Assembly (NCBI GenBank): GCA_016748015.1
Contig: JAAOMT010000620.1
Location: forward strand, 421,246-485,245
DNA length: 64,000 nucleotides
Reading direction: 5' to 3'
From: Geosiphon pyriformis
Lineage: Eukaryota; Glomeromycota; Glomeromycetes; Archaeosporales; Geosiphonaceae
Positions 1 to 49,124 of this stretch are shown here, piece by piece. The position numbers and the translations under genes are program-made. Below the pieces are notes generated by a model. That model searched no databases, was not told the origin of the DNA, and saw only the letters and a list, made by a program, of their open reading frames with translations. How positions within the stretch are numbered: the first letter of the stretch is position 1; every line of letters begins with the position of its first letter.

Positions 1-1700
1 ACATGTTTTAAAAATAAAAAAAATTCCAGACCAACTTATCTCAGTCTGTTTTTTGTTTAAAAATAAACTTTCACTTACAATTTTAAGTTTGTATACTGGT
101 ATTTTTATTAAAACCAAGTTTAATTAAATATTAAAAATCAATTTTTTTATTGTTAAAGCAATTAATTCAAATTTTTTTGTGGTTTTAAATAGAAATTTCA
201 ATAATAACAGATTTAAAAAAAATGTGAATTTTAAGTTTTATTTAGATTTAGAATTAGTTAATTTGTTTAGTAGACATTTTTTAACCAAAATTTTTACTTG
301 GTATAATTTTAAAAGAATAAAAAAAGTTATTAATTATGTTTTTATGAATTAAAACTTGTTGTTTATAATTGTTAATTATAGAATTACTTTTATATTTAAC
401 TTTTTTTATTATTAATTATAGAACAGTTATAGTTTTAATTAAGCTAAATAGTCTTTTATATATTTACTTAAATAGTATTTACAAATAAGTAAATAAAAAT
501 TATTAAAAATTTAGAATTAAAAATACAGATATTGTTAAGTAAGCTTATTTCAAATATTGGTTTAGTAAATTTAAGTGCTTAAAAAACAAACAATTATTGA
601 AGTTTTTTAAATTAAAATTATTGGTTGCCAAAATAGTAAAAAAATCAAATTTAGGTAATAAATCTGAATTTAATAATTTTATTATAAAATAATTAGTTAT
701 TAATAATAAGAAAACTTTTAAATTAATAATATAGTACAAAATAGTATAAAATCAATAAATATTATTAAATATTTGTTAATAATTAAAAAAAAGTATAGAA
801 AATTTAAGTACTATGAATCAAAAACTGCCAAAAATACTTTTATTAAAAAAAAATTAACTCATACATAAAAAATTTTAGCTTTAACAAAAAATATATAATT
901 AGAAGTGTTTTAAAGCAGTCTTTTTATAAGATAGTTTTTAACTACTTGGTAATTAAAAAAATTTTTGGTCTTAAAGTTTAATAAAGTAAAGCTTAATATT
1001 GATAAAATTATAGAAAAATAAACAAAAAACCATATTATACTTTCAAGATTGTCTAATTTGTGGTTTTATTAATATGTTTTCTTAAATTATATAAATAATA
1101 ATACTTTTTCTAAAATAATATTAAAAATTAGCATGAATAATTTAGTTTTGGTTATTAATAATCTGTTTAATAACAAAACTGCTAATTTTTTTGATATATT
1201 AAATAAACTTTAAAAACATTATAATAATATAATAATAGAATGTTTTTTGATTTTGCTAAATTTTTGTTTTGCTTTTAATAATATCTTAGCTTTTTAAAAA
1301 AAAACCAAAGTTTTAATGATTTCCAAATTTTATAAATAGAATAAAGTCTTAATAAATATTTATTAAGCTTAAAAATAAGTTTTTTTAAATATTTAAAACT
1401 GTTTTTACTTATTAGTTAATTTTAATAAAAAAATATTATTATTAACCAAAAAAAATTATAATATTTATAAAACCAATTTAATTGATTTTTATTTGGCTAT
1501 ACTGTTTTTAAAACTAGTAATTTACTTGTTTAAATTAATAATTAAACTTATTTTTTTTTAATTATTTAAATTAATATTAATATTATTTAAAAAAAATTAT
1601 ATTTGTAAACATTAAAATTTGTTTTATTTTTTTAAAACTTAAATTAAGTATATCTAATTTACTTATTGATTTGCTTAAAAGCTTTAATTAATTTAAAAAT
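1..1700 (+). mobile_element. Fossil LINE, endonuclease and RT parts
   Basis: This AT-rich stretch holds no open gene, but it can be aligned by eye to the younger LINE at 12410-19212. Positions about 240-430 correspond to the end of the endonuclease: a broken frame reads LVN then TWYN then INYVF, matching LVN, TWSN and IDYLF in the younger copy. Positions about 890-1180 align to younger-copy 15660-15960, just upstream of and into the RT, including the NLPNGKAAG segment, here readable as NLFNNKTAN. Differences are mostly C-to-T and G-to-A. The left end lies outside the window and the right limit is vague. No function is expected. Confidence 0.7.
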
Positions 1701-2173
1701 AAATACAAACTTATTTTTTAAATATTCATGATTTTGAAAATAATTTATTAATTATAATTAATTATAACAAATTATATTAAATGTAAATTATAAATATGTT
1801 TATATGTTTATAATAAATAAGTATTAATAGATTACTTTAATAAAATAAAAGCATTAAATATCTTTAATTTAAAAAAAAATTATTTTTATTGTATAATTTG
1901 TTATATAATTTATATTTAATATATAATAATTGTATTTATAAAAATAGTTGGTAATTAAATTAATTAATATTTAGTAAATTAAATAATTTATTTCAAATTT
2001 AAAGTATGTATATATTTATAAATATGACTCAAAGGACATTTAATGATTGGCAGAAAACAGATCAAAGATACCAAAATAAAAGTTCCATGATCATTGTTTA
2101 GATTGAAACAAACAGTCTTGACCATTGTCAGTTTCACTTTATTTACTACGGCCAAGATTTATCAGCACGCAAA
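1701..2173. other. AT-rich spacer and upstream region of the MRG gene
   Basis: Positions 1701-2020 are almost pure A/T with no readable frame. Composition changes abruptly near 2020, about 150 bases before the ATG at 2174, so this last part probably holds the promoter and 5' leader. I see no unambiguous TATA box or other named site. Confidence 0.4.
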
Positions 2174-4390
2174 ATGTCAAATCAACAAATTGAGCAGAAC
2201 GAACTCCTCTTTCATGAAAAAGAGGATGTATTATGTTTTCACGGTCCTTTACTTTACGAGGCTAGAGTCCTAAAAGCTGAGATATGGAATCCAGGTGATT
2301 CAGAAACTGGGGACACAGGTCCCCATTATTACATCCACTACAAAGGATGGAAATCATCTTATGATGAGTGGGTGGCAAACGCTAGGGTGTTAAAATATAA
2401 TCAGGATAATCTCGAGGAGCAAGCACGATTGAAAGAAAAGCATAATCAATCTAAAAAGAGAAAGAGCGCAAAGATTACACCTCCAAAAGCTGTGGCTCAG
2501 GAAGATCCTTTAACAAGAGAAAAGCCATCTACATTGGGGGCCTCATCCAAAATCACAAAACCAGTCGCCAATACCAGTAAAAGAAGTACCATTGTGGAAA
2601 ATAAGTTATCGGAAAGTTCGCCGGTATCAAAAAGTGGAAGAAGCTTGAAACCCACCGAAAAGAAAGAAGAAATCAAAAAGGATGAAAGCAAAAGTAAAAA
2701 GGGAAAGGAAGATGTTAAAAAAGAGGCGGCTAAAAATGAAGATATAAAGAGCAAAAAGGGAAAAGATAGTCCCCCAGAGGCTGTTGGAGTTCACGAAAAG
2801 GGAGAAGAAAGGTCAGAAGACAAGATGGACATTGATCTACTGGATGTTACTGAAGAGTATAAAGCTGAAAATACGGCCGAATCCCAAGATTTTATGGAGA
2901 TATCTCAACCACAAGAGCAAGATGGATTGGGTAGTACACAAGACCGCGCTGGCAAAAGAAAATTTGCCGAAGTTGATAAAACCCCCAAGGTTTAGGATTT
3001 GAAATCTTTCAAATGACTATTATAAAATTCTCATTATTTATTTGGACATTTATAGTTCAATTTGCCATCAGAGACAGAGGCACTTTTTCGAACTCGTCCT
3101 GAAATCGAAATTGGCATCCCTGAATCCCTCCAAATTAAATTGGTTGATGACTGGGAAACTATTGCTAAACTTGGTTTGGTATGCATAAACTACATGTTGA
3201 TATTATTGATGAGAAACGAATAATTTCGTTAATATTTAGAAATATTTCACATTCGAATAATCTGTTCATGTTTACAAATCCGCAGAGGAGAGAGCTTCCT
3301 CGACCTATCACATTTAATGAGATCCTCGGAAGATGGGTTGAATATCAACGTAAGCAAGATTCACAAGAGGAAGAGAATCAGAAGAAAGAAGAGCCAATTC
3401 AAAGCAACATTGAAAATTCTACATGTGAAGAAGCTAGCTCCAAATTAAATATGGAAGCAGATGATGCTGAAAATAAAGATCAAGATTCTGAATTTGATTC
3501 TTTGGCACCTAAACCAACAGCAAATGGTGAAGGCAACCAAGAAGTAGGAGTTTTGACACCAGTTAAGGATACCAACCTTGAGGCTGAGTCAGCTCCACAA
3601 TTCGAAGCTGAATCAGATGGCCAAAGAATCAATGAAATCGAAGCTGAGTTAAAACCGATTGCTGATGCCACTCTAGATCTCACAATTGCGGCTCCGAACA
3701 ATCAGAAGATAGTAACCTCGGCTGATAACGGCCCATCATCTGCTATACCCCACGAACCCTCAGATATATACCATGAGGTGGTCGAGGGTCTTAAGAAGTA
3801 TTTTGAAAGAACTTTAAGACACACTCTACTATACAACTCTGAAAGACCTATACTAACTGAGCTACTTAAGACCAAACCAAACCAATCTTTTGGGGATATA
3901 TTTGGTGCTGAACACATGTTACGGCTTTTTGTAAAATTACCCGAATTTCTTGCTCATACCGAGATCGAATATGATTGTGTGCAAGAGCTAACCTTCCGGA
4001 TCACTCAAATCATGGCATTTCTAAATATGGGAATTCATGAGTTTTTCGATCCATCTCCCACCCAAATCACTTTCTTGGTATCTCCCTCTAAAAAACCAAG
4101 AATCAATCCTCCACAACCACGAAGATCAGCCGCTTCCTGGAAAAATCAGCCTGGCTTGACCTGTGCAAATTGTGGAACCCAGGATACACCTGGTTGGCGT
4201 GTAGGAAGCACTCAAGATGAGAAGCTTTGTAACGGTATTTACTTGTCCAACATTGGTTATTTTTCCCATTATATTATTGATTCCAAATTAAACACTTTTT
4301 CACTTAGCATGTGGACTTTATTATGCCAAACACCGTATTCAACGACCCTCTAATTTATGGGGATTGATTCGAAGTAAGCGAAAAGCTTAA
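2174..4390 (+). CDS. Eaf3/MRG15-like chromo-MRG protein with GATA zinc finger
   Basis: Proposed exons are 2174-2989, 3056-3178, 3286-4234 and 4308-4390 (656 aa); all introns are GT..AG. Residues about 18-79 form an MRG15-type chromo barrel (FHGPLLYEA, HYKGW, DEWV). A Lys/Glu/Ser-rich linker follows. The MRG domain starts near residue 287 (IGIPESL, LVDDWE), is interrupted by an acidic insert of about 130 residues (339-471), and resumes at 473-578 (HEVVEGLKKYF, LLYNSERP, MLRLFVKLPE). Residues 606-631 form a GATA finger, C-X2-C-X18-C-X2-C, completed across the last intron (LCN|ACGLYYAKHR), followed by a basic tail. Known Eaf3/MRG15 proteins bind methylated H3K36 and serve in NuA4 and Rpd3S complexes. 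The GATA finger is not part of the usual architecture and implies direct DNA binding (inference). The first donor, GTTTAG, is non-consensus. Confidence 0.88.
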
Positions 4391-46540: not shown

Positions 46541-49124
46541 TTAATCGACCTCAATTTTAATTTCAACATGGTCTTCGAAGCCGTCTTCGAATTCATCATC
46601 GTCATTATAATCATCAGCGTCTTCGTCGTTTGTTCCGATTGAAGACGAAGTGTTGGTTGTTTGTCCATTAGATTTTGTTCTAGCCTTTTTCTGACGATCT
46701 GGACTAGTCAATAATTCTCCAATTTCCTGGACACCCTCGGTTCTTTTTCTTTTTTGAGAATTTAGAACTTCTTCATCCTCCTGGTCTTCATCTTCGCTAC
46801 TTTCGTCATCCTGAAACTCTTGTTCTTCACTTCCATCACTTTTTTGTCCAGTTTCAGCTCCCCAGTGACCTCTATCTACTTCGCCTCCATAATAAACAAA
46901 TAATTCTTCACCCTTTAATATATCTCTTTTAGTCCAACAAATAACCTGATTAACTTCATTACCCTCCAAAAAAACCATATTCCCAAATGGATCTTCGTTC
47001 ATAAAATGAAAAGGACAAAATATTTTTCCATTTGGATCGGTAAACGGTTCTCCCTTGGCATCAGTAGCATCAAGAATTGTATGACGATATCTCATTGAAT
47101 AATGTGAGGCTTTCCCCACGTTATCCTTGTAAAGATCAAATTCATGTTCCAAAGTTGGCACTCCAAAGTAAAATCCAAGTGGAGTGGTCATAGGGAGATT
47201 TCTCGTTGCAAATAAACCACGCCCTGCATTTGGAATTGTAGATGTACGAACTTCAACAATGTCACTCAACTTACTAGGAACACCTGTTAAATCAAGCCCA
47301 TTTAGAATTTCTTCTGGATTTGCTGCTTGAACTATTGCACTATTTTTGGTTACTCTAATTTTTTTTTCACTATAATCAACTGCCTCTCGTGCTTTAGTTC
47401 TCAAAGAAAATGGTGTCTGTGGTGTATCGGTCTTTTTGGCAGAAGATTTGGGGGTGTAAAGGTCTTTTAGTGGGGTAAGTTCTTTCTGAACCCCAGCACG
47501 CATGGGATATACACAAAGTATTCCTTTAGTTTTACATCTTGTGCAAGAAGGTAACTTCATATCACACCCCCTTAGTTCAGGACCACAACGTCTACATCTT
47601 AAATGTTTTTCGTTGCTTGCTCCTACACTCAAAACAACCGCTCGTGGACTTTTAATAAGTTCAGTACCTGTTTAAAGTATTAAAATCAGACGAATTTTAA
47701 TGAATTGGTTAATCCAAACATTTGCAGAAAGTATTTTTAATAATTACCAGGCTTAGATTTTTTTGTCTTTCCAAAACATAAGGGCCAATCGTGTTCCGTT
47801 AATCGTTTCATCCATTTATTGTAGGTGGCAATAGCATCATCAAGATCTCCAGGTATGAAAGAGAGCTTATAAAAAGAGGTAGTAGCCCCGTCCTGCTTAA
47901 TAGGTATAAAGTACTTGTCCGCATTTGTGGTCAGGCAGGCACTAGCAGAATTTTTTGGAGTCTATCAACATAGAACAACGCAATAATTCCCATACAATAA
48001 GCCACAACAAAATTAATTTTCAACATGATAATTTTAGATATATTTTAAGAGTTTATATATATATAATTAAAAAAAGATTATAACTTATTATATTCATGCA
48101 AATAGGAATTATATAAGGTAAACCTAATTTGATTACAATAACGCACCTGACCCATAAAACATCTGGGTAAACCCTCGCGTGCGCTCATCTCTGCGTCCTT
48201 GGCTAAAGCTCGAGTAATAAGTTCAGTACGTGGCAAAATATGTGAAGGTGCTTCTAATAAAGTTCTGAGAAGCATTTGTTGCTGATTGTGCCACCTGGGA
48301 CGAACTATTTGCTGTGGTAGTCTGTAACGTACACGAGGTCGTAAAGAGAACTTATGTCTTGGACCTTCATCACTATCTTCATCATTCTGGTCTAGGTCTT
48401 TTATTTCTGGATCATTGGGTATTCCTTTAGGAAATACTATTTTTATAAAATTGCCTATATGAACATTATCGTCTTTTGATATATTAGTCTTGACGAGATC
48501 CAATAGTTTAAATCCTTTGGCGGCCGCTAGCTCTTGCATACACGCATAAAAATAAGATAAAGTCTTTTGTTCGTAAATATCTCGAAATACATCACGAGAA
48601 ATTTTGGAGATACACGGATAGAGGATATAAACGTTTCTGTCAGAATTAAACTTTGAGGTACAATTCTTTAGGAATCTCTGAAGAACGTCGCGTGCACTTG
48701 CCCAATCTCTATGTGAATGTTCTAATACAGTTCTGATCATATTAATAAAATCCTGATCGATTTCTATTGAAGTGTTGGAACTTTGGGACCCATTTTGTGG
48801 TGAAAGAATTGAAAGAAGGGTATTTCGAATGCGTTCTGCTCTATCGGGAGGTGCACACTCTGGATTAGGGGAAATTGTGAGCAGTTTCTCGACCAATGCA
48901 AGTCGTGAATTCTCATCGAGTTCCTGAAGCCTCTGAATAGCGCCTGCAAAAACATTTAACGGTAAGGGTGACAATGCCTTTATAACTATATCTTTGACGA
49001 TATCCTCCCAAGCTTGCTCCAAACTTAAACCAGCTGCTAGTTTCGGCCGAATACGAGGTTCCAGCCATTTCTTTAACACCTCCGACAATTCTTGCTCTTT
49101 TTTCTTGCCAGACAGCTTTGTCAT
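46541..49124 (-). CDS. Zn(II)2Cys6 cluster plus SET domain protein
   Basis: Proposed exons on the minus strand are 49124-48147, 47961-47748 and 47667-46541 (772 aa), with introns of 185 and 80 bp, both GT..AG. An upstream in-frame TTG at 49154 is not a likely start. The N-terminal 330 residues are helical and of a family I do not recognise (LKKWLEPRIRPKLAAGLSLE). Residues 422-449 form a fungal C6 cluster, C-X2-C-X6-C-X6-C-X2-C-X6-C, classically DNA-binding. Residues about 534-659 form a SET domain: NAGRGLF, FHFMNEDPFGN in the place of the NHS box, and GEELFVYYGG. A Glu/Asp-rich tail with Lys/Arg patches ends the protein. A sequence-targeted nuclear lysine methyltransferase is inferred; substrate and activity are unknown. 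It is divergent from the gene at 50122. Confidence 0.85.

Follow-up and report, generated by a model that had tools for sequence, protein, structure and literature searches.

Eaf3 and MRG15 (MORF4L1) are common to chromatin complexes of opposing activity, and the targeting of such complexes to particular genes is usually credited to separate transcription factors. In Rpd3S, the chromodomain of Eaf3 reads histone H3 trimethylated at lysine 36 (H3K36me3) and its G83-W88 loop touches DNA (PMC10432269). In NuA4, Eaf3 belongs to the TINTIN module; the complex is recruited via Tra1, and yeast TINTIN binds nucleosomes weakly and without specificity for H3K36me3 (PMC9643008). GATA-type proteins have also been reported in this context: yeast Rpd3L contains the GATA-like Ash1, which has an X20 loop and binds YTGAT (PMC5311114), and SIN3B, PHF12, MRG15 and GATAD1 form a human complex (PMC8143632 and PMC9309374). 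Here, we describe a gene of Geosiphon pyriformis in which a GATA-like finger is part of an Eaf3/MRG15-type protein itself. The gene lies at 2174-4390 (+) of a 64,000-nucleotide stretch of contig JAAOMT010000620.1, hereafter the window. This sequence was already public, and database records already list the combination of MRG and GATA, some under the name EAF3. The architecture was found undescribed in the literature searched: a search made largely without subscription papers showed no description of an MRG-GATA fusion among the papers listed.

Results

The gene model, built from the sequence, has four exons and encodes a 656-residue protein in which a chromo barrel is followed by an MRG domain that a disordered insert divides in two and, at the C terminus, by a GATA-like finger. 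Its parts are given below, all on the forward strand; C377 is the contig of a paralogue in the same genome, and the slash in LCN/ACG marks the position of an intron.

2174..2989 (+): exon 1, with the start codon, the chromo barrel (residues 13-88 = 2210-2437) and a charged disordered linker
2990..3055 (+): intron 1, 66 nt, GT..AG; position kept in the C377 paralogue
3056..3178 (+): exon 2, start of the MRG domain (FNLPSETEALF..LVDDWETIAKLGL)
3179..3285 (+): intron 2, 107 nt, GT..AG; the NCBI model uses an acceptor 9 nt downstream and drops RRE
3286..4234 (+): exon 3, with the remainder of MRG-N to 3354, a disordered insert of ~130 residues (3355-3747), MRG-C (3748-4050), a linker and the start of the finger
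4162-4234 (+): first 24 residues of the finger, at the 3' end of exon 3
4235..4307 (+): intron 3, 73 nt, GT..AG, phase 1, in the Ala codon of LCN/ACG, within the finger
4308..4390 (+): exon 4, including the stop, with the second half of the finger (ACGLYYAKHRIQRPSNLW) and the tail GLIRSKRKA

A Pfam-A search of the spliced protein matched MSL3_chromo-like (59.9 bits, cut-off 28), MRG in two stretches (131.2 bits, cut-off 22.8) and GATA (48.6 bits, cut-off 26.8), the last with its C4 zinc site present. The finger is of the form C-X2-C-X18-C-X2-C and spans C606-C631 of the model, encoded by 4162-4234 and 4308-4312. An independent NCBI protein, G9A89_022460 (P0001; 653 aa), is annotated with MRG, chromo-type and GATA domains. 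An earlier account made from the letters of the window (the sequence-only reading) had placed a chromo barrel, an MRG domain and a complete four-cysteine GATA-family finger in one gene, with the last intron splitting the finger. The domain search, the NCBI model and the C377 copy agree on the former, and the phase-1 position of intron 3 bears out the latter. NCBIfam gave no family for P0001 or for four related proteins (P0005, P0014, P0067 and P0008).

The structure was predicted with AlphaFold2 (AF2) from an alignment of 38 of the 167 proteins retrieved below. The predicted local distance difference test (pLDDT), averaged by 10-residue block, is 92-98 over residues 11-90, the chromo barrel, and fold comparison of the prediction matches both the chromo barrel and MRG to the Eaf3/MRG15 family fold. 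These comparisons covered chromo and MRG, and no GATA chain was among the 50 matches listed in each. The fold of the finger thus rests on the sequence matches and on AF2 confidence. The barrel carries Y28, Y56, W59 and Y63, which are taken to correspond to the aromatic cage of MRG15/Eaf3; all four positions are aromatic in 12 of 13 fused rows. By motif reading, the loop residues G58 and K60 correspond to the DNA-contact loop of Eaf3.

The Geosiphon genome (124.7 Mb) holds a second copy of the gene on contig C377 (L023), with the same architecture, four exons and the same intron positions, including the position and phase of intron 3. Our initial GATA search of the genome overlooked the finger of this copy, and a later search recovered it. 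Identity between the copies is 68.5-90.5% in the exon parts, 60.6-73.8% in the introns, and 44.1 and 52.7% in the flanks, with an overall synonymous divergence (dS) of 0.78. The ratio of non-synonymous to synonymous rates (dN/dS; Nei-Gojobori, on this single gene pair) is lowest in the finger, at 0.013, with 15 synonymous changes and 1 non-synonymous change in 54 codons. It is 0.090 in the chromo barrel, 0.073 in MRG-C, and 0.449 in MRG-N, a value inflated by the scarcity of synonymous changes there. In exon 4 all 27 residues are identical, with 8 synonymous and 0 non-synonymous changes in 27 codons. Given this constraint and the greater drift of introns and flanks, the last exon is therefore coding and strongly constrained, and no other part of the protein is as constrained as the finger, which is under very strong purifying selection. 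In the six-frame translation of the window, the motif of the first half of the finger occurs once, and no generic unspliced C-X2-C-X16-19-C-X2-C was found. We thus rejected chance or artefact as an explanation, based on the architecture of the paralogue, the constraint on exon 4, the identity of exons versus introns and flanks, and the rarity of the motif.

Two further features of this pair were noted. The dS of MRG-N (window 3095-3354 versus L023) is 0.20, compared with 0.58-1.06 in the other parts, which may mean gene conversion or constraint at the DNA level. Intron 3 of the C377 copy (L023 4562-4642) is 81 nt long, in frame and stop-free, so that its retention would add 27 residues inside the finger without terminating the protein.

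Searches of ~5.8 billion proteins retrieved 167, which were then scored with local profiles; one of the searches scored 8000 candidates, and the query region of another favoured finger-bearing proteins. MRG is present in 151 of them, and 20 carry both MRG and the finger. All 20 come from 12 species of Glomeromycotina in 10 genera: Geosiphon, Ambispora, Paraglomus, Diversispora, Acaulospora, Cetraspora, Dentiscutata, Funneliformis, Rhizophagus (irregularis and clarus) and Entrophospora (two species); we assume this placement for the genera other than Geosiphon. A whole finger is present in at least one model for 11 of the 12 species, and in Dentiscutata only the end of the finger is in frame. 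None of the 117 retrieved MRG proteins without a Glomeromycotina name, a set that takes in unnamed metagenome proteins, has the finger, which agrees with the view of the sequence-only reading that Eaf3/MRG15 proteins elsewhere lack one. The fusion that it saw as built into this gene is genuine, but it is not peculiar to it, being found in many Glomeromycotina and twice in Geosiphon. Hence, a fusion limited to Geosiphon was rejected. So was the idea that fused genes are the sole MRG genes of this fungus, which has three unfused ones (L024, L025 and L026): C346 and C308, both of MRG15 type, and the more divergent C320, whose rough model could, as a guess, be MSL3-like. The NCBI model of C346 starts at an internal ATG and thereby loses part of the chromo barrel.

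Fourteen Glomeromycotina MRG proteins lack the finger. Six are of unfused types (C346-like, found also in Gigaspora, Ambispora, Diversispora and Acaulospora, and C308), and eight resemble the fused gene in shortened or frame-shifted form. Three proteins resembling the fused gene, P0026, P0028 and P0029, are very similar to fused Rhizophagus models yet end at DFLK. We treated the eight as incomplete models, which may conceal a real short isoform. A long insert in the MRG domain is found in Geosiphon and Ambispora.

An MRG tree was built with the finger removed, from 12 of the 20 fused proteins (11 retrieved ones and the spliced window model in place of P0001; P0015, P0017, P0018, P0024, P0025, P0031, P0063 and P0064 were left out), six unfused Glomeromycotina types (with a spliced C346 model in place of P0084) and 21 of the 117 others. 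Amid the fungal Eaf3 proteins, the fused ones make up a single clade (support 100/96), to which the tree assigns no definite sister. A second clade (100/100) unites five unfused C346-type proteins, and Geosiphon C308 belongs to neither. Because the fused proteins form one clade even without the finger, a single old origin is likely. The simplest reading would be that the fusion arose once, in the Glomeromycotina stem, and was retained from then on; it may have been lost elsewhere.

The finger of the window has the signature TPGWRV and an X18 loop. Across its class, G is present in 15 of 17 fingers and A or V follows WR in 17 of 17. Also kept are the R of WR (16/17), the N of LCN (16/17) and the L of CGL (16/16), presumably the usual DNA-contact positions, and an RPxxLW end, with W in 16 of 16 and L in 15 of 16. 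The C-terminal tail, GLIRSKRKA in the window, is shorter and less basic in several relatives. A canonical GATA factor finger was rejected as the class, since PMC5311114 gives an X17 loop with T-(P/S)-(L/V)-W-R-(R/K). One fused protein of Entrophospora, P0022, has a decayed finger (SPDWHAG..LCSICALYY) that keeps the four cysteines and RPxxLW but not R and N; another Entrophospora copy, P0032, retains R and N.

The nearest fingers outside Eaf3-type proteins belong to bromodomain proteins of Ambispora, Entrophospora and Basidiobolus, to PF12024 or partial proteins of Gigasporaceae, and to Geosiphon C362. Identity over the finger stretch is 72-84% for P0008-P0010 compared with the window and for P0069 compared with P0005, and 55% over a longer stretch for P0067. 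In C362 (L027, about 1490-3830), bromodomain exons are followed by the same split GATA-like finger; PF12024 was not found in this locus. The phase-1 intron at LCN/ACG is shared by the window gene (C394), C377 and C362, and by none of 18 other Geosiphon finger sequences, of which 6 are unbroken and 12 broken elsewhere; in the second fingers of L011 and L020 the break is only a few bases from this site. In six models, four of Eaf3 type (P0024, P0025, P0063 and P0064) and two of bromodomain type (P0080 and P0081), the sequence leaves the finger immediately behind LCN or LCS; this is seen in gene models, not DNA, and is consistent with a conserved intron. In a tree of 37 finger rows (near-copies, partial models and the Geosiphon fingers of L015 and L018 were left out), the Eaf3 and bromodomain fingers group together (91/100), apart from transcription-factor fingers except for one long-branch row. 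Judged from these sequence comparisons, the finger and its intron most likely came as exons from a bromodomain protein before the living Glomeromycotina diverged. The bromodomain form is the likelier donor because Basidiobolus, outside Glomeromycotina, also has it, and copying would thus have run from the bromodomain protein, presumably BRD7/9-like, to Eaf3.

The fused gene sits in an island of its own, about 2.0-4.7 kb. Other islands of the window, at 16-31 kb and 58-62 kb, carry retroelement-like pieces between blocks of ~7-20% G+C. Reverse transcriptase and RNase H matches in these islands are below cut-off, and two kinds of match are over it:

58.5-59.0 kb: integrase
26.4-27.3 and 61.1-61.7 kb: dUTPase

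A single open frame at 46544-47671 (-) encodes a SET domain (PF00856, over cut-off) and an N-terminal six-cysteine stretch like a Zn2Cys6 cluster (PF00172, 18.2 bits, below the cut-off of 21), possibly a second protein that joins a DNA-binding motif to a chromatin domain. Rfam gave no match in the window, and a tRNA scan in its bacterial setting found none.

Discussion

We think it rather probable that this gene encodes a form of Eaf3/MRG15 with a chromo barrel, MRG docking and a finger of bromodomain-protein origin that makes a second contact, most likely with DNA. The chromo barrel would read methylated H3K36, and the MRG domain would dock into deacetylase complexes of the Sin3/Rpd3S type and acetyltransferase complexes of the NuA4/TINTIN type. 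The TPGWR-class X18 finger would add its contact beside the marked nucleosome. Its domains and fold match, together with matches to Sin3 and Eaf7 in the Geosiphon genome, suggest that the protein works as an Eaf3 subunit of NuA4/Rpd3S. A search for Set2 by its SRI domain gave no match in Geosiphon but none in its controls either, and is uninformative.

Contact of the finger with DNA is somewhat favoured in our judgement, because the zinc site is kept, as are R, N and L, and because WC-2, an X18 finger, binds DNA (YCGAT; PMC5311114). The sequence-only reading had gone further and proposed targeting to GATA sites. That proposal is partly supported: DNA contact is indeed plausible, but its target may be GATA-like or other DNA, for the loop is X18 and two of the positions that define canonical fingers in PMC5311114, L/V before W and R/K after WR, carry G and V. 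The most serious alternative is that the finger binds a protein partner: it would be a protein-interaction or histone-binding module linking Eaf3 to a further subunit, with the bromodomain protein using it for the same partner. The G of TPGW, the A or V after WR and the RPxxLW end depart from transcription-factor fingers, the same finger is found on two different chromatin readers, and P0022 retains the four cysteines and RPxxLW with R and N lost. The conservation of R, N and L across the class and the DNA binding of WC-2 speak against this alternative, which we consider less likely. It is far less probable that the main product in vivo is a short, fingerless Eaf3, and that the fused form is a lesser or splice-regulated product. 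The models P0023 and P0026-P0029 all stop at DFLK before the finger (P0027 judged by its last 40 residues), and P0014 and P0015 differ in the linker preceding it. However, the finger is the protein's most constrained part, exon 3 of Geosiphon runs continuously from MRG into the finger, and whole-finger models exist for 11 species. The wrong joining of two adjacent genes by annotation can be dismissed, since MRG-C and the first half of the finger share one stop-free exon, the arrangement recurs in the paralogue and in other genera, and the NCBI model concurs.

Several points should nevertheless temper the reading of a DNA-contacting finger taken over from a bromodomain protein. In GATA-1 numbering, G and V/A stand where canonical fingers have L17 and R20, and Lys takes the place of the usual L37. 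A short tail of 13 residues follows RP in the window, with fewer in some relatives, and both the TPxWR arginine and the LCN asparagine are gone from the finger of P0022. The finger tree, with 52 columns and an unsettled bootstrap, is weak taken alone, and one long-branch transcription-factor finger falls inside the group. Furthermore, 8 Glomeromycotina gene models stop before the finger or misread it, and in 5 of the 20 fused ones (P0017, P0024, P0025, P0063 and P0064) the finger is incomplete; some isoforms may therefore lack a functional finger.

A broader idea, which we regard as rather unlikely, is that two readers, Eaf3 for methylated H3K36 and a BRD7/9-like protein for acetyl-lysine, share a finger whose exons were copied from the latter into the former on the stem lineage that led to arbuscular mycorrhizal fungi and Geosiphon, and that both fingers perhaps recognize one common DNA motif. 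If one short motif served both, it would guide deacetylase/acetyltransferase and remodelling complexes to common sites without separate transcription factors, a targeting code built into plant symbionts. In any case, a finger-bearing Eaf3, kept across a plant-symbiont lineage, offers a natural system for testing whether a reader can bring its own address. Its finger, common to the bromodomain protein, suggests exon copying as its origin and provides a matched pair for comparing binding.

Finally, the fused protein can be set beside four known kinds of system. It resembles Eaf3/MRG15, the subunit of Rpd3S/SIN3S and NuA4/TIP60, in its chromo barrel with the cage positions and in an MRG domain of the same fold; what sets it apart is the additional zinc finger at the C terminus and, for Geosiphon and Ambispora, the long MRG insert. 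With the bromodomain proteins of Glomeromycotina and Basidiobolus, some of which carry PF12024, it shares the C-terminal finger and the RPxxLW end, and with Geosiphon C362 the site and phase of the intron, but there the reader is a bromodomain, and chromo and MRG are absent. Fungal X18 fingers of the WC-2/NsdD type (for WC-2, PMC5311114) have the same C-X2-C-X18-C-X2-C spacing. Geosiphon C386 and C381, however, show (S/T)PEWR.GPxG..(S/T)LCNACGLR with a break after GLR, whereas the window has TPGWR..LCN/ACGLYY with the intron before ACG. Yeast Ash1 in Rpd3L and human GATAD1 in the SIN3B-PHF12-MRG15 complex likewise bring a GATA-type finger protein into a Sin3 deacetylase complex, but they do so on a separate subunit, whereas in Glomeromycotina the finger is on the MRG subunit itself.
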